From Planctomycetes bacterium UBA2386 (GTDB lineage: Bacteria; Planctomycetota; UBA1135; UBA2386), in assembly GCA_002343845.1 (NCBI GenBank), contig DDSQ01000200.1, positions 305-10,012 on the forward strand: a stretch of 9,708 nucleotides of DNA, written 5' to 3'. Below, in pieces: positions 1-9,708 of the stretch. Both the position numbers and the translations under genes were made by a program. A model generated the notes under the pieces. That model saw only the letters and a list, made by a program, of their open reading frames with translations, was not told the DNA's origin and ran no database searches. Numbering within the stretch: position 1 is the first letter of the stretch; each line of letters begins with the position of its first letter.

Positions 1-766
1 CGGCGGCATGAGCGGCGGCCCGGCGGTCGATGCCCGGGGGCGGGTGATCGGCGTCAACGTCGCCGCGCGCCGCGACGGCGAGCAGATCGGCTTCCTCGTG
101 CCCGCGGCGCCGGCGCGCAGCCTGCTCGAGCGCGGCCGGCAGGCGATGGCGCTGACGCAACCGCTGTACGCCGAGGTCACGCGGCAGCTGCAGGCGCACC
201 AGGCGCAGCTCGTCGAACGCTTTCTCGCGCAACCCTGGCGCAGCGCCAACCACGCGCGCTACCGCGTTCCGGTCCCGCAGGAGAGCTTCATGCGCTGCTG
301 GGGCACCCCATCGCCCGAGCAGCAGAAGTACATCAGCTTCGACCGAAGCGACTGCGAGACCAGCCACGATGTCTTCATCTCGCCGCGCCAGCAGACCGGC
401 TCGATCTCGGTGCGCCACGAGATCTACGACGGATCGCGGCTCGGCGCGCTGCGCTTCGCGCGCCTGTACAGCGCGAGCTTCCGCAACGAGGTCTTTCCCG
501 GCGGGGGCTCGACCACGCCACCGCGCTGCCGGGAGGGCTTCGTCGACCGCGACGGCCTGGCCCTGCGCACCGTCGTGTGCCTGACCGCGCTGAAGCGCTT
601 CGAGGGCCTGTACAACCTGTCGGTGCTGACGACAACCGTCGACCATCCGACGCAGGGCGCGCAGGGCCGGCTGGATGCCGAGGGCGTCGACTTCGCGAAC
701 GCGATGCGCCTGGTCCGGCACTACCTGGACGGATTCGGATGGACGGACCGCAAGCCCCGTCCGTGA
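1..766 (+). CDS. Trypsin/HtrA-like serine protease, C-terminal part (5' end outside window)
   Basis: The reading frame is open from the window edge, so the true start lies upstream. The first residues form the G-x-S-G-G-P serine-protease motif (GMSGGP), with the putative catalytic serine codon at 11-13. A strand pattern typical of the end of HtrA/DegP-like trypsin domains follows (GRVIGVNVAARRDGEQIGFL). The catalytic His and Asp would be upstream and cannot be checked. No PDZ domain is visible. Instead there is a C-terminal extension of about 200 residues with four cysteines (97, 116, 174 and 191, counted from the ATG at 8), which would fit two disulfides in an exported protein. I do not recognise this extension. 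The gene overlaps the start of the next gene by 28 nt, which suggests one operon and coupled translation. The protease call rests on the short N-terminal stretch; the substrate is unknown. Confidence 0.72.
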   Translation, partial: GGMSGGPAVDARGRVIGVNVAARRDGEQIGFLVPAAPARSLLERGRQAMALTQPLYAEVTRQLQAHQAQLVERFLAQPWRSANHARYRVPVPQESFMRCWGTPSPEQQKYISFDRSDCETSHDVFISPRQQTGSISVRHEIYDGSRLGALRFARLYSASFRNEVFPGGGSTTPPRCREGFVDRDGLALRTVVCLTALKRFEGLYNLSVLTTTVDHPTQGAQGRLDAEGVDFANAMRLVRHYLDGFGWTDRKPRP

Positions 767-1773
767 CGCCGCCGCAGGGTTTGCCCCCGCGCCGCCTCGC
801 CGTGCTGGAGCTGCGCGAGCGCGACGGCCGGCTGGCGCAGATCGTCGACGTCACCCGCTGGCCGCTGACGCTCGGCCGGGCACTGGACAACGACGTCGTG
901 CTCGCCGATGCCCACGTGGCGGCCCACCATGCCCGCATCGTGCTCGATGCGCAGGGCGTGCCGATGCTGCAGGCCCTGCCCAGCCGCAATGGCGTGGTCA
1001 TCGAACACGCCGCCGGCGTGCGCCGCCTGAGCGATGGCGAGCAGGCGGCGCTCGCTCAGCCGGCGCGCGCGAGGCTGGGGCACACCGTGCTGCGGCTGCG
1101 GCTGCCGGACGATCCGCTGACGCCGGAGCAGGTGCTGGCGGCCACGCCAGCCGCCGCGTCGGCCGCCCCCGTGGCCCTTCTGGGGCTGCTCGTCGCGCTG
1201 TGGACGCTCGCGGTGCAATGGCTCGATCGCGACCCCGACAGCCGCTGGATCGACTACCTCGCGCCGCTGCTGGTCGCGGCGGGCGGCCTCGCGGCCTGGG
1301 TCCTCGTCTGGGCGCTGCTGTCCAAGCTGTTCCGCGGGCACTTCGCCGTTCGACCGCACCTGCTGCTGACGCTGGCCTTTGCCCTGGCGATCGCGACGGC
1401 GGAGTTCGCGCTGCCGGCGCTGGCCTTCGTCCTCGACTGGCCCCTGCTCAGCCGCGTGGCCGGGCTGGCCGCGGGCGTGCTGGCGGCGATGCTCGTCGTC
1501 CAGCAACTGTCGCTGATCGTGCCGCTGCACGCGCGAAGCGTGCGCCTCGTCGCCGCCGTCCTCGTCGTGCTGGCGGCCGGCGTGCAGATGGTCACGACGC
1601 GGCAACAGCAGGATCGGCTGTTCGCCGAGCTCTACAGCCCGGTGCTCCTGCCGCCGTCGCTGCGTCTGGCACCTGCGCGCCCGGTCGATGAGTTCACGAG
1701 CCGGCTGCGCATGCTGGAACAGCCGCTGATCGAGCGCGTGCGCCGCGCCCAGGCCGAAGACATCGAGCCCTGA
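739..1773 (+). CDS. FHA-domain integral membrane protein
   Basis: The product is 344 residues. The frame is open further upstream, but I chose the ATG at 739: residues before it read as out-of-frame protease sequence, and a GGACGGA element (727-733) sits 5 nt ahead. Residues about 18-122 look like a forkhead-associated (FHA) domain: L-G-R at 45-47, N51, the H63-H64-A65 segment and S-R-N-G at 82-85. FHA domains usually bind phosphothreonine peptides. Here the serine of the usual V-S-R-x-H-A motif is alanine (A61), so phosphopeptide binding is uncertain. About five hydrophobic segments follow (roughly 145-161, 172-195, 206-231, 238-263, 267-286), then a charged tail of about 58 residues. The FHA domain is predicted cytoplasmic. 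The gene overlaps the protease gene by 28 nt, so the product may sense or partner that enzyme. That role is inference; the family beyond FHA is not recognised. Confidence 0.82.
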   Translation: MDGPQAPSVTPPQGLPPRRLAVLELRERDGRLAQIVDVTRWPLTLGRALDNDVVLADAHVAAHHARIVLDAQGVPMLQALPSRNGVVIEHAAGVRRLSDGEQAALAQPARARLGHTVLRLRLPDDPLTPEQVLAATPAAASAAPVALLGLLVALWTLAVQWLDRDPDSRWIDYLAPLLVAAGGLAAWVLVWALLSKLFRGHFAVRPHLLLTLAFALAIATAEFALPALAFVLDWPLLSRVAGLAAGVLAAMLVVQQLSLIVPLHARSVRLVAAVLVVLAAGVQMVTTRQQQDRLFAELYSPVLLPPSLRLAPARPVDEFTSRLRMLEQPLIERVRRAQAEDIEP

Positions 1774-1991: not shown

Positions 1992-4900
1992 ATGAGGACG
2001 TCGAGGGAACCCCGTCAGCCGCGCATGGGCGCCGTTGGCCATCGCCGCATCGCGGCGGCGAGCGCGCTGGTGGCGTTGCTGGCCCTGGGTGCCTGTGGCG
2101 GCGGGGGCTCCTCGCCGGAACCGGCCGCCGCCCCGCTCGACGGCCGCCAGCGGCCGCTGGCGAGCTCGCCGGAGTCGATCCCGGCGGATGCCCATGTGAA
2201 GGGCACCTGGAGCGCGGTTCACGACTGGCCGATCATCCCGATCCACTCGGTGCTGATGCCCGACGGGCGCGTGATGACCTTCGGCAGCCGGCCCGACGGC
2301 AGCTCGACCGCGTACTTCGGCCTTGACATCTGGGACAACGCCGGCGACCCGGCCAGCGGCCACCTGTCGATCGCCAACGGCACCGGCAACGACATCTTCT
2401 GCTCGGCCCACCTGCTGCTGCCGCCGCCGGACATGGCCAGCGCGCCGGCCGTCTTCATGGCCGGCGGCGACGCCTGGAACGGCATCAGCAGCACCTTCAT
2501 CGGCATCAAGGGGCAGACGGTCTACGACGGCGCGGTGGGCGGCCTGGTCAAGGGCACCGAGATGACCCGCCCGCGCTGGTACGCGTCGACGACCACGCTG
2601 GTCAACGGCGAGGTCTACATCCAGGGCGGCGCCGGCGGCGCCGACCGCCCGGAGGTGCGTCAGGCCGACGGCACGATCCGCACGCTCACCACGGCGGACA
2701 CGAGCTTCCTCGCATGGTCCTACCCGCGCAACTACGTGATGCCCGACGGGCGCCTGTTCGGCTACGACTACGAAGGCCGGATGTACTTCGTCGACACGGC
2801 GGGCACGGGCACCGTCTCGGCGCGCACGATCCTGCCGATGCAGTACTTCGGCATCGGCAGCTCGGCGATGTTCCGACCGGGCCGCATCCTGCAGATCGGC
2901 GGCAACACCAACGCCGCGGCGATCATCGACGTGACCAGCGGCAATCCGGTGTTCACGCCGACGCAGTCGACCAGCACCGTGCGCAAGACGATGACCGCGA
3001 CGCTGCTGGCCGACGGCCAGGTGCTCGTGACGGGCGGCAGCCCCGTGTGGAACGAACTGCCGGGGGCCAACAAGGCCGCCGAGATCTGGAACCCGGTGGA
3101 CGGGCAGTGGACGCTGGGCGCCGAGGGCGCGCGGGCCCGCCTGTACCACTCGACCGCGCTGCTGCTGCCCGACGCCAGCGTGCTCGTCGGCGGCGGCGGT
3201 GCGCCGGCGCCGGTCGGCGGCCCGTCGATCGGCGAGCGCAACGTGCAGATCTACTACCCGCCGTACCTGTTCAAGGCCGGCGGCGTGCGCGCGACCCGGC
3301 CGGTGATCACCGCGACGCCGGACTGGCTGGAGATCGGGCGCACCTTCAACGTCCAGGTTACCGGCGGCAGCTCGGTCTCGCGCGTCGTGCTGGTCAAGAC
3401 CGGGTCGGCGACCCATGGCTGGAACTTCGACCAGCGCTTCATCGAGTTGAGCTTCACGCGCACGGCCACGCCCTCCGGCGGGCACTCGCTGGCCGTCAAC
3501 TCGCCGGCGCGGCCCGGCGAGGCGACGCCCGGCTACTACATGCTCTTCGTCTTCGACGAGGCCGGCGTGCCGTCCGAGGCGCGCATCCTGCGCATGGGCG
3601 TCGCTGGTCCGCGCAACTCGCTGCAGGCGCCGTCGATCACCAACCCGGGCGCGCGCACCGGCACACCCGGCGTCGCCACCAGCGTGCAGCTGTCGGCCAC
3701 GGACCCGAACCGTGACCGGCTGACGTTCAGCGCGTCGGGCCTTCCGCCCGGGCTGTCGATCAACCCGACGACCGGCCTGGTCAGCGGCACGCCGGCGACG
3801 CCGGGCAGCTACGACGTCGTCGTCTCGGCAAGCGACGGCAGCTACAGCGACAGTGCGGGCTTCGTGTGGACGATCACGCCGCAGACGCCGCTGACGCTGA
3901 CCCTGGCACCCACGCCCGGCGCGAGCCTGGCCGGCAGCTCGGCCGCTTTCGCCGCCGGCGCCACCGGTGCCGGTACCGTCGAGTACTCGTGGAACTTCGG
4001 CGACGGCAGCGGCGACACGCCGTGGTCGGCGCAAGGCCAGGTCTACAAGGCGTACCCCCGCCCGGGCATCTACTCGGTGACGGTGCGCATCCGCGACGGC
4101 AGCGGCGCGGTGATCAGCCGCAGCTTCGTGCAGACGGTCTACCTCGGCAACGGCGGCCTGAAGGCGCCCGCCGTCTCGGGCAACATGGTCATCGCGACGC
4201 CGGTGGTCCACGGGGTCGACCGCCTGTGGGTGGTCAATCCGGACAACGACTCGGTCACGGCCTTCGACACGCTGACGCAGCAGCGCCTGGGCGAAGTCGC
4301 CGTCGGTGCCGCCCCGCGCACGATCACCGTCGCGGCCAACGGGCTGCTGTGGGTCACCAACAAGTCCGACTCGACGATCAGCGTGATCGACCCGGCCAAC
4401 CTGGTCGTCGTGCGCACGATCCCGCTCGCACGGGGCGCGCAGCCGTTCGGCATCGCGGCGTCGCCGGTCGACGCGCAGGCCTTCGTCGCGCTCGAGGGCT
4501 CCGGAGAGGTGCTGCGTTTCGACACCAGCAGCTTCGCGCAGACCGGCCGCCTCGCGGTCGGGCCGAACGTGCGTCATGTCACGGTCACCGGCGACGGCCG
4601 GCAGGTCTACGTGACGCGCTTCATCACGCCGCCGATGCCCGGCGAGTCGACTGCCACGGTGCTGACGCCGCCGGACCGCGGCGGCGAGGTGCTGCAGATC
4701 GACGCGGCCGCGATGACGCTGACGCGCACGATCGTGCTCGCGGCATCGGCCCGCCCCGACAGCGAGAGCCAGGGCCGCGGCATTCCGAACTACCTCGGCG
4801 CGATGAGCATCTCGCCGGACTACAGCCAGGGCTATGTCCCCGGCAAGCTCGACAACATCCTGCGCGGCACGCTGCGCGACGGCTCGCCGCTGAACTTCCA

Positions 4901-6827
4901 GAACACCGTGCGGGCGATCAGCTCGCGCATCCCGCTGGTCGGCGGCTCGGCCTCGGCCGAGGACCTGCCGCGGCGCATCGACCACGACAACGCGAGCCTG
5001 GCCTCGGCTGCCGCCTACGACAACCGCGGCGTGCTGATGTTCGTCGCGCTGGAGACCAGCCGCGAGGTCGCGGTGATCGACGCGCACACGGGCGGCCAGC
5101 TGATGCGCTTCGACGTCGGCCGCGCGCCTCAGGGCCTGGTGGTGTCACCGGACGGCTTCACGCTGTTCGTCCACAACTTCATGGACCGCACGGTCAGCGT
5201 CCACGACCTGCGCCCGCTGCTCACCCAGGGCCTGGCCGTCGTGCCGACCGTGGCCACCTGGCAGTCGGTGCTGCGCGAGCGCCTGCCGGCCCAGGTGCTG
5301 CGCGGCAAGCAGCTGTTCTACGACGCGCGCGATCCGCGGCTGGCCCGCGACGGCTACATGAGCTGCGCGGCGTGCCACCACGACGGCGGCCACGACGGCC
5401 GCGTGTGGGACCTGAGCGGCTTCGGGGAGGGGCTGCGCAACACGATCAGCCTGCGCGGTCGGGCGGGGGCGCACGGCCGGCTGCACTGGAGCGGCAACTT
5501 CGACGAGGTGCAGGACTTCGAGGGCCAGATCCGCACGTTGGCCGGCGGCAGCGGGCTGATGGCCGATGCCGCGTTCAACAGCGGCACGCGCAGCCAGCCC
5601 CTCGGCGACGCGAAGGCCGGGGCCAGCGCCGACCTCGACGCGCTCGCGGCCTACGTCGCGTCGCTGGACCGTTTCGCGGCCAGTCCCTGGCGCGCGGGCG
5701 GCGGCCTGACGCCCGAGGCTGCGGCCGGCCGCACGGTATTCGCCGCGAAATGCGCGGGCTGCCATGGCGGCAGCGACTTCTCCAACAGCCGCGACCGCGT
5801 GCTCCCGGACATCGGGACCCTCACGACGGCCAGCGGCCAGCGGCTCGGTCGCCCGCTGGCGGGCCTCGACACGCCGACGCTGCGCGAGGCGTGGGCCACG
5901 GCACCCTACCTGCACGACGGGTCGGCGCCGACGCTCGAGGCGGCGATCCTGGCGCACCGCGGCCCTGCCTTGTCGCCGCAGGAACTGGCGAACCTCGCGA
6001 GTTATGTCCGGCAGATCGACGCCGACGAAGCCGCGGCACCGGCCAGCCAGGCGAACCTGGTCGTCCGCGCGCTGGCGACGCTGGCCGACAAGGTCGGCGC
6101 GGCCTACGAGGTGCGCGTCAATCGTGCCGTCGTCGGTGCCGGGCAGCTCGATTCGGCCGGCTGGGTCGACCTGTTCTTCGACGTCGCGACGCTGCTCAAG
6201 GATGCGGTCGTCGAGATCGTCTTCAAGAACGACGCGACCGTCGGCAGCGAGGACCGCAACCTCGCGGTGCAGTCCCTCACCGTCGACCGCGCCAGCACGC
6301 TGCCGGCCAACGCGCCCGGCGTCGTCATCGACACCGGCAGCGGCGCGCAGGCCTTCGACAACCAGGACGTCGTCGACGCGACGCGCACCGGCGGCTGGAT
6401 GCCGTGGAACGGCGCGATGCGCTTCCTCCCGGGTGGCAACGCCGGCACGGTCACGGTGCGTGCCCGTGCGACGCTCGCCGCCGGCGTCGGGGTCCAGGTC
6501 GAACTGCGCGTGAACGGCGCGCTCGTGGCCACGCGGGTGATCTCGTCGACGACGGTGCAGGACGCTGTCTTCGCGACGCCGCCGATCGCATCGGGCGATC
6601 GCATCGACGTCGTGTTCACGAATGACGCGCTGCTCAACGGCGAGGATCGCAACCTCTACGTCGAGTCGATCGCCGCGCGCGGCGCCGTCCTCGCCACGAC
6701 GGCCGCCGGCGTCGTGATCGACCGCGGCGAAGGCGCGCAGGCCTTCGACGGCGTCGATGTCCTTCCCGCGGCGGGTTATGGCGGCTGGCTGCCCTGGAAC
6801 GGCGCGCTGCGCTTCGTCGTGCCCTGA
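1992..6827 (+). CDS. Giant multidomain lipoprotein: copper radical oxidase + PKD + beta-propeller + di-haem cytochrome c + two carbohydrate-binding modules
   Basis: The product is 1611 residues. A signal peptide ends in a lipobox (LGAC, C35); glycine follows the cysteine, which favours the outer membrane. Residues about 71-537 are a galactose/glyoxal-oxidase-like Kelch propeller with the C-terminal DUF1929 domain (from about 434). By motif alignment the copper and cofactor residues are all present: C137 (FCS), Y197 (RWY), Y385-H386 (LYH) and H475 (ATH). Such enzymes oxidise alcohols or aldehydes and make H2O2. Next come a putative Ig (He_PIG) domain (about 546-630), a PKD domain (about 633-717, WNFGDG), and a YVTN-type beta-propeller (about 731-1075). 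A MauG/cytochrome c peroxidase-like domain (about 1095-1345) has haem motifs CAACH (1125-1129) and CAGCH (1254-1258) and the family's APYLHDG segment. Two tandem modules (about 1354-1481 and 1484-1611) resemble CBM60-type calcium-dependent xylan-binding domains. Likely role: surface oxidation of a polysaccharide or aldehyde, with the haem domain handling peroxide or electrons. Substrate is unknown. Confidence 0.88.
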   Translation: MRTSREPRQPRMGAVGHRRIAAASALVALLALGACGGGGSSPEPAAAPLDGRQRPLASSPESIPADAHVKGTWSAVHDWPIIPIHSVLMPDGRVMTFGSRPDGSSTAYFGLDIWDNAGDPASGHLSIANGTGNDIFCSAHLLLPPPDMASAPAVFMAGGDAWNGISSTFIGIKGQTVYDGAVGGLVKGTEMTRPRWYASTTTLVNGEVYIQGGAGGADRPEVRQADGTIRTLTTADTSFLAWSYPRNYVMPDGRLFGYDYEGRMYFVDTAGTGTVSARTILPMQYFGIGSSAMFRPGRILQIGGNTNAAAIIDVTSGNPVFTPTQSTSTVRKTMTATLLADGQVLVTGGSPVWNELPGANKAAEIWNPVDGQWTLGAEGARARLYHSTALLLPDASVLVGGGGAPAPVGGPSIGERNVQIYYPPYLFKAGGVRATRPVITATPDWLEIGRTFNVQVTGGSSVSRVVLVKTGSATHGWNFDQRFIELSFTRTATPSGGHSLAVNSPARPGEATPGYYMLFVFDEAGVPSEARILRMGVAGPRNSLQAPSITNPGARTGTPGVATSVQLSATDPNRDRLTFSASGLPPGLSINPTTGLVSGTPATPGSYDVVVSASDGSYSDSAGFVWTITPQTPLTLTLAPTPGASLAGSSAAFAAGATGAGTVEYSWNFGDGSGDTPWSAQGQVYKAYPRPGIYSVTVRIRDGSGAVISRSFVQTVYLGNGGLKAPAVSGNMVIATPVVHGVDRLWVVNPDNDSVTAFDTLTQQRLGEVAVGAAPRTITVAANGLLWVTNKSDSTISVIDPANLVVVRTIPLARGAQPFGIAASPVDAQAFVALEGSGEVLRFDTSSFAQTGRLAVGPNVRHVTVTGDGRQVYVTRFITPPMPGESTATVLTPPDRGGEVLQIDAAAMTLTRTIVLAASARPDSESQGRGIPNYLGAMSISPDYSQGYVPGKLDNILRGTLRDGSPLNFQNTVRAISSRIPLVGGSASAEDLPRRIDHDNASLASAAAYDNRGVLMFVALETSREVAVIDAHTGGQLMRFDVGRAPQGLVVSPDGFTLFVHNFMDRTVSVHDLRPLLTQGLAVVPTVATWQSVLRERLPAQVLRGKQLFYDARDPRLARDGYMSCAACHHDGGHDGRVWDLSGFGEGLRNTISLRGRAGAHGRLHWSGNFDEVQDFEGQIRTLAGGSGLMADAAFNSGTRSQPLGDAKAGASADLDALAAYVASLDRFAASPWRAGGGLTPEAAAGRTVFAAKCAGCHGGSDFSNSRDRVLPDIGTLTTASGQRLGRPLAGLDTPTLREAWATAPYLHDGSAPTLEAAILAHRGPALSPQELANLASYVRQIDADEAAAPASQANLVVRALATLADKVGAAYEVRVNRAVVGAGQLDSAGWVDLFFDVATLLKDAVVEIVFKNDATVGSEDRNLAVQSLTVDRASTLPANAPGVVIDTGSGAQAFDNQDVVDATRTGGWMPWNGAMRFLPGGNAGTVTVRARATLAAGVGVQVELRVNGALVATRVISSTTVQDAVFATPPIASGDRIDVVFTNDALLNGEDRNLYVESIAARGAVLATTAAGVVIDRGEGAQAFDGVDVLPAAGYGGWLPWNGALRFVVP
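6051..6824 (+). repeat. Tandem duplication of a ~128-residue carbohydrate-binding-like module
   Basis: The two halves of the C-terminal region align along their whole length. Shared landmarks are VRA-ATLA near the start, EDRNL-V-S in the middle, GAQAFD--DV, and GGW-PWNGA-RF at the end. Copy 1 spans about 6051-6435 and copy 2 about 6441-6824. The EDRNL and AFD-x-x-DV motifs are the acidic, likely calcium-binding features of CBM60/CBM36-like domains. Copy 2 (GEDRNLYV, AFDGVDV) is closer to the consensus I know; copy 1 (SEDRNLAV, AFDNQDV) has drifted. Divergence at DNA level indicates an old duplication. Confidence 0.75.
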
Positions 6828-6850: not shown

Positions 6851-7783
6851 TCAGGCGGCCCCGTGCAGCATCCGCTCGAGCCGCTCGTCCTTCTGCTGCC
6901 ACAGCCCGTTCAGCCAGTGCTGCACGTGCTTGCGCTGCTGCGGGTCGCCGTCGGCCCGGTGCAGTTCCGCCGGGATCGGCCGGCGCTCGATCGAGACGAC
7001 GATGCGCGGCACCTCGCCGCGCAGGAACTGGCGGAAGCCGGGCACGCCGCCCGGGTAGGCGATGGTCACGTCGACCAGCGCGTCGAAGCGATCGCCGAGC
7101 ACGGCCAGGGCGGTCGCCATGCCGCCCGCCTTCGGCTTGAGCAGGTGGCGGTACGGCGAGTGTTGCGCGGCGTGCTTGGCCGCCGTGAATCGCGTGCCCT
7201 CGACGAAGTTCATCACGCTGGTCGGCGCGTCGGCAAAGCGCGCACAGGCGCGCCGGGCCGCGTCCAGGTCCTCGCGGCGTTTCTCGGGGTTGCGCCGCAG
7301 GACCTCCTCGGAGTGACGGCGCATGAACGGGAAACCCAGCGCCCACCAGGCCAGCCCCATCACCGGCACCCAGATCAGCTCGCGCTTCAGGAAGAACTTC
7401 AGCAGCGGCAGGCGCCGGTTCAGCAGGTGCTGCAGCACGAAGATGTCGACCCAGCTCTGGTGGTTGCACACCACCAGGGTCCAGGCCGCGTCGGGCACTT
7501 GCTCGAGCCCGTCGACCTGCCAGCGCGTGTCCTGCGTCAGGTGCATCCAGCCGCTGTTGCCGGCAATCCAGGCCTGCGCGACGGCATTGAGCAACGGGTC
7601 CAGCCGACGCTGCACGGCGGGCACGGGCGCGAGCAGCAGCCTCGCCAGCGCCAGCGCGAACAGCACCAGGCAGCACAGCAGGGTGTTGGCCACGAGCAGC
7701 GCGGCCGCGACCGCGGCACGCAGCGCTGGCGGCCACGCGGCGAGCGGTGCCCGCGCCGCGCGCTCCGCCTCAGCGCGCTTCAC
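6851..7783 (-). CDS. PlsC/YihG-like lysophospholipid acyltransferase
   Basis: The product is 310 residues and starts with GTG at 7783, overlapping the end of ubiT by 14 nt. A hydrophobic segment (about 22-52) anchors the N-terminus in the membrane. The acyltransferase motif H-X4-D is present as NHQSWVD (H108, D113), and the second motif EGTR lies at 195-198. Length and the F-V-E-G-T-R-F form match the YihG/LCLAT1-like branch of the 1-acylglycerol-phosphate acyltransferase family. Members transfer an acyl chain to a lysophospholipid such as lysophosphatidic acid at the inner membrane. The exact acceptor cannot be read from sequence. It is the last gene of the ubiUVT run and its start depends on the end of ubiT, so it is probably translated by coupling. 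Whether it has a role in quinone metabolism or is simply a passenger in the operon is unknown. Confidence 0.88.
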   Translation of the reverse strand: MKRAEAERAARAPLAAWPPALRAAVAAALLVANTLLCCLVLFALALARLLLAPVPAVQRRLDPLLNAVAQAWIAGNSGWMHLTQDTRWQVDGLEQVPDAAWTLVVCNHQSWVDIFVLQHLLNRRLPLLKFFLKRELIWVPVMGLAWWALGFPFMRRHSEEVLRRNPEKRREDLDAARRACARFADAPTSVMNFVEGTRFTAAKHAAQHSPYRHLLKPKAGGMATALAVLGDRFDALVDVTIAYPGGVPGFRQFLRGEVPRIVVSIERRPIPAELHRADGDPQQRKHVQHWLNGLWQQKDERLERMLHGAA

Positions 7784-8222
7784 GCCACAGCGGCCCGACC
7801 GCGTCGAGCGTGTTCTTCAGCACGAGGCCGAACTCGGTGTCGCCCTCGATGACCAGCGCACGGTCGAAGAACAGGCGGTCGGCGTCGTCGATGCCCCGCA
7901 TCAGCCGCCACAACGCGTCGGCCCGGGCGCGGATCACGACCGCCGGTGTCCTCGCGGGCCCGGTCGGGACGAAGCCGCTGGCGGCCAGTTCCAGGCGTAC
8001 GCGCAGCCCCGGCTCGACGATCTCGATCTCGACCGCGCGGCCGGCGAGATCCTGGCGCTGCGAGGCTGTCAGGCGCGGCAGCAGCAGACGGTTCAGGGCC
8101 AGCGCGAGCACGAGCGACGGGGGCTGCGTCGGCAGACGGCGGACGATGCCGCGGACGCGGCCGGACAGGGCCTCGAGCGCGCCGGTGATGCCGGCGCCCG
8201 GCGACGGGACGGTGGGATTCAT
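7770..8222 (-). CDS. ubiT: UbiT, SCP2-domain factor for oxygen-independent ubiquinone biosynthesis
   Basis: The product is 150 residues with an SCP2 sterol-carrier-like fold over about residues 35-140. The signature near the end (F-F-D-R then VIEGDTEFGLVLKNTLD) is characteristic of the YhbT/UbiT family. UbiT binds ubiquinone and its prenylated intermediates and, with UbiU and UbiV, allows ring hydroxylation without O2. The ATG at 8222 is preceded by GAGGAG at 8239-8234, which overlaps the ubiV stop codon, so translation is probably coupled. It lies 15 nt after ubiV. In E. coli ubiT is divergent from ubiUV, while here all three share a strand. The identification is strong because ubiU and ubiV are adjacent. 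Confidence 0.9.
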   Translation of the reverse strand: MNPTVPSPGAGITGALEALSGRVRGIVRRLPTQPPSLVLALALNRLLLPRLTASQRQDLAGRAVEIEIVEPGLRVRLELAASGFVPTGPARTPAVVIRARADALWRLMRGIDDADRLFFDRALVIEGDTEFGLVLKNTLDAVGPLWREAR

Positions 8223-8233
8223 CGCGGACGGAT

Positions 8234-8239
8234 CTCCTC
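8234..8239 (-). promoter_or_regulatory. Ribosome binding site of ubiT, overlapping the ubiV stop codon
   Basis: On the minus strand GAGGAG begins inside the ubiV TGA (8240-8238) and lies 11 nt before the ubiT ATG. A terminating ribosome would sit on this site, which suggests coupled synthesis. Confidence 0.65.
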
Positions 8240-9188
8240 AGGCGGCCAGCGGCTGCATGCCGCTGCGCCGCCAAGCATAGCCGTCGACGAGCGCACCGGG
8301 CAGCCCGAGGCCGCGAAGCTCGGCCAGCACGTCGGCTGCCGCAGCGCCCCGGTTGTAGGCGGCATCGAAGAGCTCGACGACCCGCGGGAAGTGCGCGGCG
8401 CAGGGGGACAGGCGCACGCTGCGCGCGCCGGCGGCGCGCAGCGCGGCCCCGGCTGCCGGCAAGGCGTGCAGCGCCGCCGACTGCGTCTGGATGCCATTGA
8501 GCACGAGGAACGGTTCGCCTTCGCCCGACGACAGCAGCAGGCCGTCGGCATCGCTGCGGCAGCGGAAGTCGCAGGCGTCCTTCGGCAGCCGGTGGTGGCG
8601 CGCGGTGAAGCAGCGTGCCGAGAAGGCCAGCGGCATGCGGCCGAAGGCGAAGGCCTCGGTGACGACCGGCCCGGCCGGTCCGCGCACGCGGTCGGCGGGC
8701 GGGTTGACGCGGGCCACGGCGTCCAGCGGCAGCTCCAGCGGCGGCACCCAGGTCGCCGCGCCCAGCGGCGCCACTTCCTCCAGCGCGGCGCGGCTGTAGA
8801 CATTGATGTGCGGCCCCACCACGAAGGGCGGGCGGCCGCGCCGCGCGGCCTGTGCGCGCCCGAGCACCGCGAGCGCCGACGCATCGCCGGCCTCGACCGC
8901 GAAATGGTCCTGCTCGCAGACCTGGCGCAGCGTGCGCAGCTCGGCCTCGCTGGTGACGAGCGCCTGGGTGGCCAGCACCACCTGCTTGCCGGCGCTGGCC
9001 AGCTCCACCGCCATCGCCAGCCAGTCGGCGAGCTTGAACTCGTGGCGTCGCGAGCAGACGGTCTCGCCGAGCACCACGGTGTCGGCGGGGCCGTCGGCGA
9101 CATCGGCGTAGAACGCGATCGTCGCGGCGCGCGGCCACCAGTAGGGCAGCGGGCCGACCGTGAGTCCGAAGGGGCGCGGGCTGGGCAT
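8238..9188 (-). CDS. ubiV: UbiV, U32-family Fe-S protein of oxygen-independent ubiquinone biosynthesis
   Basis: The product is 316 residues, close to the usual UbiV length. It is a peptidase-U32-like protein: GP-x-x-YWWPR at the N-terminus, LGETVCSRRHEF around C45, and a C-terminal cluster ARCFTARHH...DACDFRC. The four cysteines expected to hold a [4Fe-4S] cluster are C45, C193, C206 and C210; the last pair has the CX3C spacing of the family. UbiV pairs with UbiU to hydroxylate the ubiquinone ring without O2, using prephenate as oxygen donor in the E. coli system. The frame runs open upstream to 9704, but that part lies inside ubiU and reads as low-quality sequence, so I chose the ATG at 9188. 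No good Shine-Dalgarno precedes it; with ubiU ending 26 nt upstream, re-initiation may be used. Confidence 0.93.
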   Translation of the reverse strand: MPSPRPFGLTVGPLPYWWPRAATIAFYADVADGPADTVVLGETVCSRRHEFKLADWLAMAVELASAGKQVVLATQALVTSEAELRTLRQVCEQDHFAVEAGDASALAVLGRAQAARRGRPPFVVGPHINVYSRAALEEVAPLGAATWVPPLELPLDAVARVNPPADRVRGPAGPVVTEAFAFGRMPLAFSARCFTARHHRLPKDACDFRCRSDADGLLLSSGEGEPFLVLNGIQTQSAALHALPAAGAALRAAGARSVRLSPCAAHFPRVVELFDAAYNRGAAAADVLAELRGLGLPGALVDGYAWRRSGMQPLAA

Positions 9189-9214: not shown

Positions 9215-9708
9215 TCAGCGCCAGGGCCGGTCGTAGGCGCCGAGCGTGTGCTGCTGGCCCTCGGCCCAGCGGGCGAGGGCGGCGGTCCAGCCCGGCTGCA
9301 CGGCATAGCGGGCAGCGGACGCGGCCTGGTCGATGGCCTGGCGCCAGACCTGCGTGACCTCGGCCACGTAGGCCGGACTGCGCTGCCGGCCCTCGATCTT
9401 GATCGCCGACACGCCGGCGGCCAGCAGCTGCGGCAGCAGGGCGAGCGTATTCAGGCTGGTCGGCTCCTCGATCGCATAGTCGCGCTCGCCGTCGACGACG
9501 AAGCGGCCCTTGCACAGCGTCGGGTAGCCGCGCGGCTCGCCGGGCGCCAGGCGGTCGATCAGCACGCCGCCCAGCCGCGCCTCGACGCCGGCCGGCGTGT
9601 CCTCCCAGCGCACGGCCGCGGGCGGTGAGCACACGCCGGCGGTATTCGGCGACTGCCCGGTGGCGTAGGACGACAGCGCGCAGCGCCCCTCGACCATCAC
9701 GCACAGGC
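9215..9708 (-). CDS. ubiU: UbiU, U32-family Fe-S protein, C-terminal half (5' end outside window)
   Basis: The frame stays open to the window edge, so the N-terminal half is missing. The visible 164 residues contain the U32 signature region: LCVMVEGRCALSSY, then AGVCSPP and PTLCKGRF. The four cysteines are spaced 7, 17 and 39 residues apart, which matches the Fe-S ligands of E. coli UbiU as I recall them (C169, C176, C193, C232). The I-K-I-E-G-R segment and an R-x-x-Y-V motif, both typical of U32 proteins, follow. UbiU forms a heterodimer with UbiV and carries out the anaerobic hydroxylation steps of ubiquinone synthesis. It is the first visible gene of the minus-strand run; any promoter, such as an FNR-type anaerobic site, would be outside the window. 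Confidence 0.93.
   Translation of the reverse strand, partial: LCVMVEGRCALSSYATGQSPNTAGVCSPPAAVRWEDTPAGVEARLGGVLIDRLAPGEPRGYPTLCKGRFVVDGERDYAIEEPTSLNTLALLPQLLAAGVSAIKIEGRQRSPAYVAEVTQVWRQAIDQAASAARYAVQPGWTAALARWAEGQQHTLGAYDRPWR

Follow-up and report, generated by a model that had tools for sequence, protein, structure and literature searches.

A single gene in the 9,708-nucleotide stretch of Planctomycetes bacterium UBA2386 analysed here (contig DDSQ01000200.1, positions 305 to 10,012, hereafter the window) is predicted to encode a 1611-residue lipoprotein that carries an intact copper-radical-oxidase site, a two-haem c-type unit and sugar-binding modules on one chain. Both halves are of known kinds; for their combination no described enzyme was found in the open-access literature searched, in agreement with the preliminary description of this DNA, which knew of no characterised protein with this architecture. 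From its N-terminus, the chain consists of a lipoprotein signal, a kelch and an early-set domain, the linkers He_PIG and PKD, a YVTN propeller, CCP_MauG plus Cytochrom_C, and two CBM60 stretches. The linkers, the seven-bladed propeller (residues ~735–1085) and the C-terminal CBM60 stretches add to what had been described before.

Since the third-position GC content remains uniform along the 1992–6827 frame (0.89–0.98 throughout), a frame shift is unlikely and the gene appears to be a single uninterrupted one. Moreover, two homologues (of 1610 and 1620 amino acids) align with 71% identity over 96–97% of the query, which excludes a sequencing error that joined two genes; an assembly or frame artefact was rejected on both grounds. 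The earlier claims of one open frame across both halves and of a secreted lipoprotein were likewise upheld, as the frame holds no internal stop and the signal is followed by an LGAC lipobox, the cysteine of which (Cys35) is present in 157 of the 164 aligned family rows that reach this position. Only six cysteines occur in the whole chain (35, 137, 1125, 1128, 1254 and 1257), and these would evidently be the lipid anchor (Cys35), the Tyr-Cys partner (Cys137) and the four haem cysteines.

The front half of the protein is probably an AA5-type copper radical oxidase, as judged from its active site and from its kelch/early-set fold, the latter taken from the PF09118 match and from the model of a homologue. 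Residues 68–534 matched galactose oxidases in phmmer searches (E-values down to 7.9e-39). Profile searches were able to place both halves of the chain as proposed in the preliminary description, i.e., the oxidase through its GO-like_E_set domain (PF09118, residues 436–534; 79.0 bits vs. a cut-off of 25) and the haem half through CCP_MauG (residues 1102–1175; 38.6 vs. 25.6 bits), with Glyoxal_oxid_N staying under its Pfam cut-off (17.4 vs. 37.5 bits). Specifically, Cys137, Tyr197, Tyr385, His386 and His475 are situated exactly where that description had put the copper and cofactor residues, and all five align with those of solved galactose oxidases. Oxidase chemistry is what we infer from this intact copper site. 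When a homologue was modelled (L075; 1199 amino acids, pLDDT 85.0, pTM 0.63), its top fold matches were the galactose oxidases 9g43 and 1gof (E-value ~1e-35), with GlxA and glyoxal oxidase ranking lower. The GlxA equivalog was rejected as a name for the protein (NCBIfam NF052501; 120.7 vs. 800 bits).

With AA5 oxidases such as 1GOF, 9G43 and Streptomyces GlxA, the window protein shares the kelch fold, the early-set domain and the Cys/Tyr/Tyr/His/His site, whereas it alone carries the propeller–di-haem fusion. It also differs in having Gly215 in the place of Trp290, the stacking residue of galactose oxidase proper, an equivalence obtained by counting from the cofactor tyrosine (+18 from Tyr197; HMMER puts Trp290 in a gap). 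The presence of a stacking Trp varies among copper radical oxidases, and of the 192 family rows compared, 133 carry Gly at this position, 22 Ser and a further 22 Trp. Because the Trp290 place is occupied by Gly215 and is variable among rows, the second coordination sphere seems to differ from that of textbook galactose oxidase and to vary within the family.

Residues ~735–1345 are predicted to form a beta-propeller followed by a di-haem unit, with hydrazine synthase (HZS) beta and gamma as the nearest solved relatives. The preliminary description had called the haem domain MauG/CCP-like (CCP, cytochrome c peroxidase). Of this claim, the two CXXCH motifs (residues 1125–1129 and 1254–1258) and the CCP_MauG profile stood, and a Cytochrom_C match could be added (residues 1243–1342; 36.3 vs. 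21.3 bits); the name itself was ruled out by the axial residue of haem 2 and by equivalog and subfamily scores. The best profile match of the domain was to HZS gamma (5c2v_C, E-value 2.9e-20), followed by the peroxidase 3o5c (1e-18). Moreover, His1322 aligns with a His of HZS gamma and with a Met of 3o5c, which we take to be the axial ligand of haem 2 in CCP. MauG has an axial Tyr on its haem 2, and neither this residue nor Met occupies the position in the window protein, as His1322 is present in 199/199 rows and in 96 of the 98 copper-type rows of a second alignment. The MauG equivalog TTQ_mauG scored 37.3 bits against a cut-off of 443.85. These alignments suggest bis-His ligation of haem 2, as in the haem through which HZS gamma transfers electrons. 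On the presumed distal side of haem 1, Trp1166 aligns with the Trp of CCPs, and His1165 takes the place of Phe in two of them (alignment to 3o5c and 9qdt).

The likeness to HZS beta and gamma, which gave the best structural and profile match, extends to the propeller–di-haem order and the His for haem 2, whereas the window protein lacks the third haem cysteine (gamma Cys165), has the CCP-type Trp1166 and is preceded by a copper oxidase. With di-haem CCP and MauG proteins it shares the fold family, the two CXXCH motifs and a CCP_MauG score above cut-off, but has His1322 where 3o5c has Met. A strongly conserved propeller loop (residues 916–1000, positions 4737–4991), in which L916, G930, N933, K952 and D954 are invariant in 98 copper-type rows and in 18 rows from relatives without a copper domain, might be the equivalent of the insertion that HZS beta has in blade 6. 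The RoxA-like cytochrome c motif PF21419 exceeded its cut-off over residues 1295–1317 only (31.3 vs. 26.7 bits), and the equivalogs of RoxC (20.8 vs. 900 bits) and hydrazine synthase (65.6 bits vs. a cut-off of 1250) were rejected. No hydrazine synthase alpha-like family was detected among the seven window proteins scanned. Fused beta-gamma homologues of hydrazine synthase have been called 'highly prevalent', with no known function given (PMC12758564).

The same architecture was found elsewhere. Of the 7994 proteins scored, 1766 matched at E ≤ 1e-20, and the fusion is already present in sequence databases under names such as 'DUF1929 domain-containing protein' or 'YVTN family beta-propeller protein'. 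Among the best 120 of these 1766, 33 (the window protein counted in) have a C-terminal region similar to the CBM60 part. At the level of species genomes there were 390 pattern matches, 353 of which encode relatives; the best 80 of the 353, to judge by their titles mostly from Burkholderiales and Verrucomicrobia, were analysed as loci, and these are not independent, since several come from a shared assembly. The 200 rows of the family alignment had been selected for their resemblance to the full-length chain, which partly accounts for the co-occurrence of both halves in them. In this alignment, no covering row deviated at the copper residues or at either CXXCH motif, and mean pairwise identity (190 rows, 3000 random pairs) reached 0.79 in the haem-1 region, the top of ten stretches compared, vs. 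0.48 in the oxidase domain.

A fairer count than that of the 200 rows was provided by an even sample of 299 genomes from the family of the nearest genome, in which PF09118 was present at 47 places in 27 genomes. Of these places, 28 were fused upstream of the propeller–di-haem unit (27 in one frame, plus one in genome G743) and 19 were unfused (one lying as a gene of its own upstream of a fused copy, 18 without the unit nearby). Genes split over frames were used as found (L007, L015, L055, L057, L074 and L108), the last being one of the 28 fused cases, with its di-haem part divided over two frames. The unit was present in 7/300 genomes of an order-level and 2/398 of a phylum-level sample, and was not found in the nearest genome (G001); rows labelled VIA-align are all propellers, and the absence of a di-haem part there carries no information. 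One 2568-amino-acid frame (L100, 4756–12459) combines one oxidase domain with two propeller–di-haem units, with four CXXCH motifs in all.

Table 1. Features of the lipoprotein gene and of its surroundings, in window positions (rows refer to the 200-row family alignment).
Feature	Position	Strand	Remarks
Coding sequence, 1611-aa lipoprotein	1992..6827	+	ATG to TGA, no internal stop
Signal peptide and lipobox LGAC, putatively lipidated Cys35	1992..2096	+	Sequence
Kelch-propeller catalytic domain, copper radical oxidase (68-434)	2193..3293	+	phmmer; fold match of homologue model
Cys137, Tyr-Cys cofactor partner	2400..2402	+	Aligns with galactose oxidase; 191/191 covering rows
Tyr197, cofactor tyrosine/Cu ligand	2580..2582	+	Aligns with galactose oxidase; 192/192 rows
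Tyr385-His386, Cu ligands	3144..3149	+	Align with galactose oxidase; 192/192 rows each
Galactose-oxidase early-set domain PF09118 (436-534)	3297..3593	+	Pfam, 79.0 bits
His475, Cu ligand	3414..3416	+	Aligns with galactose oxidase; 193/193 rows
He_PIG (546-629) and PKD (636-713) linker domains	3627..4130	+	Pfam
Seven-bladed YVTN-type beta-propeller, HZS-beta-like (~735-1085)	4194..5246	+	
Di-haem cytochrome c domain (~1092-1346)	5265..6029	+	Pfam CCP_MauG, Cytochrom_C; profile match HZS gamma
Haem 1 motif CAACH (1125-1129)	5364..5378	+	Cys, Cys, His in 200/200 rows
His1165-Trp1166, presumed haem-1 distal side	5484..5489	+	199/199 rows each
Haem 2 motif CAGCH (1254-1258)	5751..5765	+	Cys, Cys, His in 199/199 covering rows
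His1322, probable sixth ligand of haem 2	5955..5957	+	199/199 rows
First CBM60-like repeat	6069..6416	+	Pfam gives two CBM60 stretches; limits drawn by eye
Second CBM60 (1486-1575), Ca-dependent xylan-binding type	6447..6716	+	Pfam
Protein cut by window edge	1-766	+	Weak HtrA-type match near start
FHA-domain protein	577-1773	+	Hydrophobic stretches by eye
YihG-type acyltransferase gene	6854-7783		Opposite-strand ubi genes lie beyond
ubiT, ubiV, end of ubiU (O2-independent ubiquinone synthesis)	7773-8222, 8238-9134, 9215-9700	-	UbiU match limited to C-terminal half because the window ends there

The natural bacterial activating partners of copper radical oxidases are little known. In the chain described here, the di-haem unit might be a built-in one-electron partner, with the enzyme's own peroxide keeping the copper-tyrosyl site active and the remainder being cleared, a reading that we hold tentatively and at slightly less than even confidence. 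The role of the haems that we infer would run as follows. SCO-type chaperones would load copper, after which the Tyr-Cys cofactor would form, and the oxidase half could convert an alcohol, sugar or aldehyde near the CBM60 modules to a carbonyl or acid, with O2 being turned into H2O2. Haem 1 would react with this H2O2 and withdraw electrons one at a time from the Cu(II)-Tyr site in its resting form, thereby holding the Cu(II)-radical state, a step proposed by analogy with the separate haem peroxidases that act in this way on fungal copper radical oxidases. Haem 2 (His/His) would exchange electrons with a small periplasmic cytochrome c and surplus peroxide would be converted to water, so that the chain as a whole would both activate its own oxidase and dispose of excess peroxide.

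From this comparison the protein looks like a one-chain form of known copper-oxidase/haem-partner pairings, i.e., Perox-AlcOx, GlxA-Sco-DtpA and mtoX-SCO1-MauG. Copper radical oxidases need activation, for which horseradish peroxidase serves in vitro, and in the fungal Perox-AlcOx pair it is the peroxidase that, by oxidation, brings the resting copper site into its radical form (PMC9770985). That pair likewise joins a copper radical oxidase and a haem peroxidase, but as two proteins and with an unrelated class II peroxidase, in contrast to the one chain and c-type di-haem of the window protein. In Streptomyces, maturation of the copper radical oxidase GlxA requires Sco and the haem peroxidase DtpA under copper scarcity (PMC4736821), where the partners are again separate proteins and the haem is of DyP type. 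The mtoX-SCO1-mauG operons, which serve another H2O2-making copper oxidase (methanethiol oxidase), likewise combine a copper oxidase with a SCO chaperone and a di-haem protein (PMC5739008); their oxidase has the SBP56 fold and their di-haem protein may be fused to SCO, whereas here the di-haem unit is fused to the oxidase.

Both halves also occur apart. The propeller–di-haem unit was found without an oxidase domain at 18 loci (L081–L083, with a short N-terminus, and L085–L099), ten of them scanned with Pfam and the other eight assigned by tblastn alone. L081 and L083 have no extra front domain according to Pfam, and eight of the ten scanned loci have an LVIVD-repeat plus Big_5 front end (with LVIVD below its cut-off in L091). 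All 18 no-copper loci keep both CXXCH histidines as well as H1165, W1166, D1175, E1177 and R1181, while H1322 is kept in 13 and Q1179 is replaced by Asp in 15. Judged from these arrangements, the haem unit is a general module, combined with different front ends. Conversely, the five unfused oxidases that were aligned (of the 19) keep all copper residues and have no di-haem unit, with two of them adjoining a fused copy. The latter are part of a row of three galactose-oxidase-like genes (L101, 2052–11915, genome G772), two haem-less (one with PA14) and one fused. Among the LVIVD-propeller di-haem chains of L085–L090, five of the six adjoin a glucose/sorbosone-dehydrogenase-like gene (with NPCBM in the case of L088); these clusters are possibly a separate sugar-oxidising system.

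The occurrence of the unit alone (L081–L083) or behind an LVIVD propeller would also fit two independent enzymes on a shared scaffold, with the oxidase acting on a bound glycan and the propeller–di-haem unit running a separate peroxidase or oxygenase reaction on another substrate. The RoxA-like motif mentioned above points in the same direction, as RoxA, which also has a bis-His C-terminal haem, uses its N-terminal haem as oxygenase site (PMC6311187). Nevertheless, the copper/no-copper label needs a single change on the tree of the unit (FastTree; support of 67, i.e., weak, and long branches), suggesting that the pairing of copper domain and di-haem unit is stable, and we consider independent enzymes improbable.

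A SCO1/SenC gene lies on the same strand beside, overlapping or fused to the oxidase–haem gene in 35 of the 80 best relatives under a looser overlap rule (34/80 under the first rule). In 22 of the 35 it is located just downstream and in 11 just upstream, with one further frame inside the span (L016) and one fusion (L030); an extra SCO frame in L079, which overlaps the main frame at its beginning, and one on the opposite strand (L041) were excluded. Where at least 1.5 kb of flank was present, SCO was found at 21/64 loci downstream and 11/65 upstream, and at 24/53 loci with this length on both sides. Other neighbour clusters resembled, by eye, widespread ABC or regulator genes, or frames lying antisense to SCO. 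Because the SCO profile used here had been built from the same 80 loci, whole genomes were also searched with Pfam. In the 299-genome sample, Pfam SCO1/SenC was detected within 4.5 kb of the oxidase-to-haem span for 13 of the 28 fused genes (10 on the same strand), vs. none of the 18 no-copper loci, one of which (L091) lies near a contig end with ~300 bases downstream (Fisher p-value of 4.9e-4, or 3.6e-3 for the same strand, for loci that are not fully independent). Since SCO genes are present somewhere in each of the 36 genomes searched, it is their closeness that is informative. Copper delivery by SCO is supported by this genome context.

The SCO fusion mentioned above (L030), from Woeseia, unites SCO1/SenC with the copper oxidase and di-haem parts on one polypeptide (protein P0098, PF02630 at 2181–2308). 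On contig C17 of genome G743 (near 217068–219444), an unfused galactose-oxidase-like gene has a SCO match ~2 kb upstream, which indicates that SCO genes may accompany the copper domain also where no haem unit is attached; few other unfused oxidases were covered by the neighbour test.

The SCO neighbours of fused genes, together with the finding that MauG makes tryptophan tryptophylquinone in methylamine dehydrogenase (PMC5739008), could also be read as pointing to maturation, i.e., the di-haem unit making or helping the Tyr-Cys crosslink, or oxidising copper for insertion, with little role in turnover. Such a function appears improbable, as the branch that lacks a copper domain has retained the haem-1 pocket, the aligned unfused oxidases keep all copper residues (in two cases beside a fused copy), and GlxA made in E. 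coli forms its crosslink with copper (PMC4736821). The first two observations disfavour maturation as a sole role and weaken the suggestion in the preliminary description that the haems might only mature the cofactor.

A small monohaem cytochrome c gene is part of the cluster at 18 of the 80 loci, each of which also has SCO, and is often placed between the fused gene and SCO. This count was reached from 20 listed cases by dropping L007, L010, L055 and L058, where the candidate was the locus's own gene in broken form, a different cytochrome or a frame of doubtful status, and by adding L028 and L057. On a plasmid record (L110), the annotated order is discoidin-domain protein, hypothetical protein (with CXXCH) and SCO family protein, and in L063 (12939–14033) a single 365-amino-acid frame holds both the beginning of a CXXCH cytochrome and a SCO match, perhaps a further fusion in the cluster.

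These cytochrome c genes bear on the main rival of self-activation, in which the haems would act as an electron wire, taking substrate electrons from the reduced copper instead of O2 and passing them via cytochrome c to the respiratory chain, which would make the protein a copper-radical dehydrogenase. This rival would also be in keeping with the bis-His appearance of haem 2, as its counterpart in hydrazine synthase, haem gamma II, is proposed to receive electrons from cytochrome c (PMC12607021), and with the glucose/sorbosone-dehydrogenase-like gene that adjoins 5 of the 18 no-copper di-haem genes (by Pfam for L088, by tblastn for the rest). However, haem gamma II has a very low potential (~–330 mV; PMC12607021) and would therefore be a poor fit for accepting substrate electrons, and characterised copper radical oxidases use O2 (PMC4736821, PMC9770985). 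Moreover, neither the window nor the majority of the 80 loci has the cytochrome c gene, and we regard the electron wire as unlikely.

Several observations weigh against self-activation by the di-haem unit as well. Since the unit persists without a copper domain at 18 loci, its presence does not depend on there being a copper radical to activate, and since 19 of the 47 oxidase domains are unfused, the oxidase can do without the haem unit. Of the 28 sampled fused genes, 15 (several on short contigs) lack a SCO gene at a distance of up to 4.5 kb, 62 of the 80 relatives do not display the small cytochrome c gene, and the window itself has no SCO or cytochrome c neighbour and no conserved partner genes. 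Finally, alignment of the window protein to CCPs is ambiguous at the catalytic Glu/Gln loop, and the whole-core model of L075 (pTM as above) yielded no usable haem-copper distance.

As this chain unites a copper radical site with a haem partner of its own, the question of natural activation becomes directly testable, and a self-activating oxidase, if this is what the protein is, would be useful in biocatalysis. Moreover, the combination of copper oxidase, SCO and cytochrome c provides a genetic context for the HZS-beta-gamma-like proteins, which are described as prevalent and as having no known function (PMC12758564). It is possible, though rather doubtful, that the protein represents a new enzyme class, i.e., a copper radical oxidase wired via an HZS-beta-gamma-like di-haem unit with which it trades single electrons within the chain, either for self-activation or for delivery to cytochrome c. 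If so, the widespread beta-gamma-like proteins would be general redox partners for front-end oxidases.

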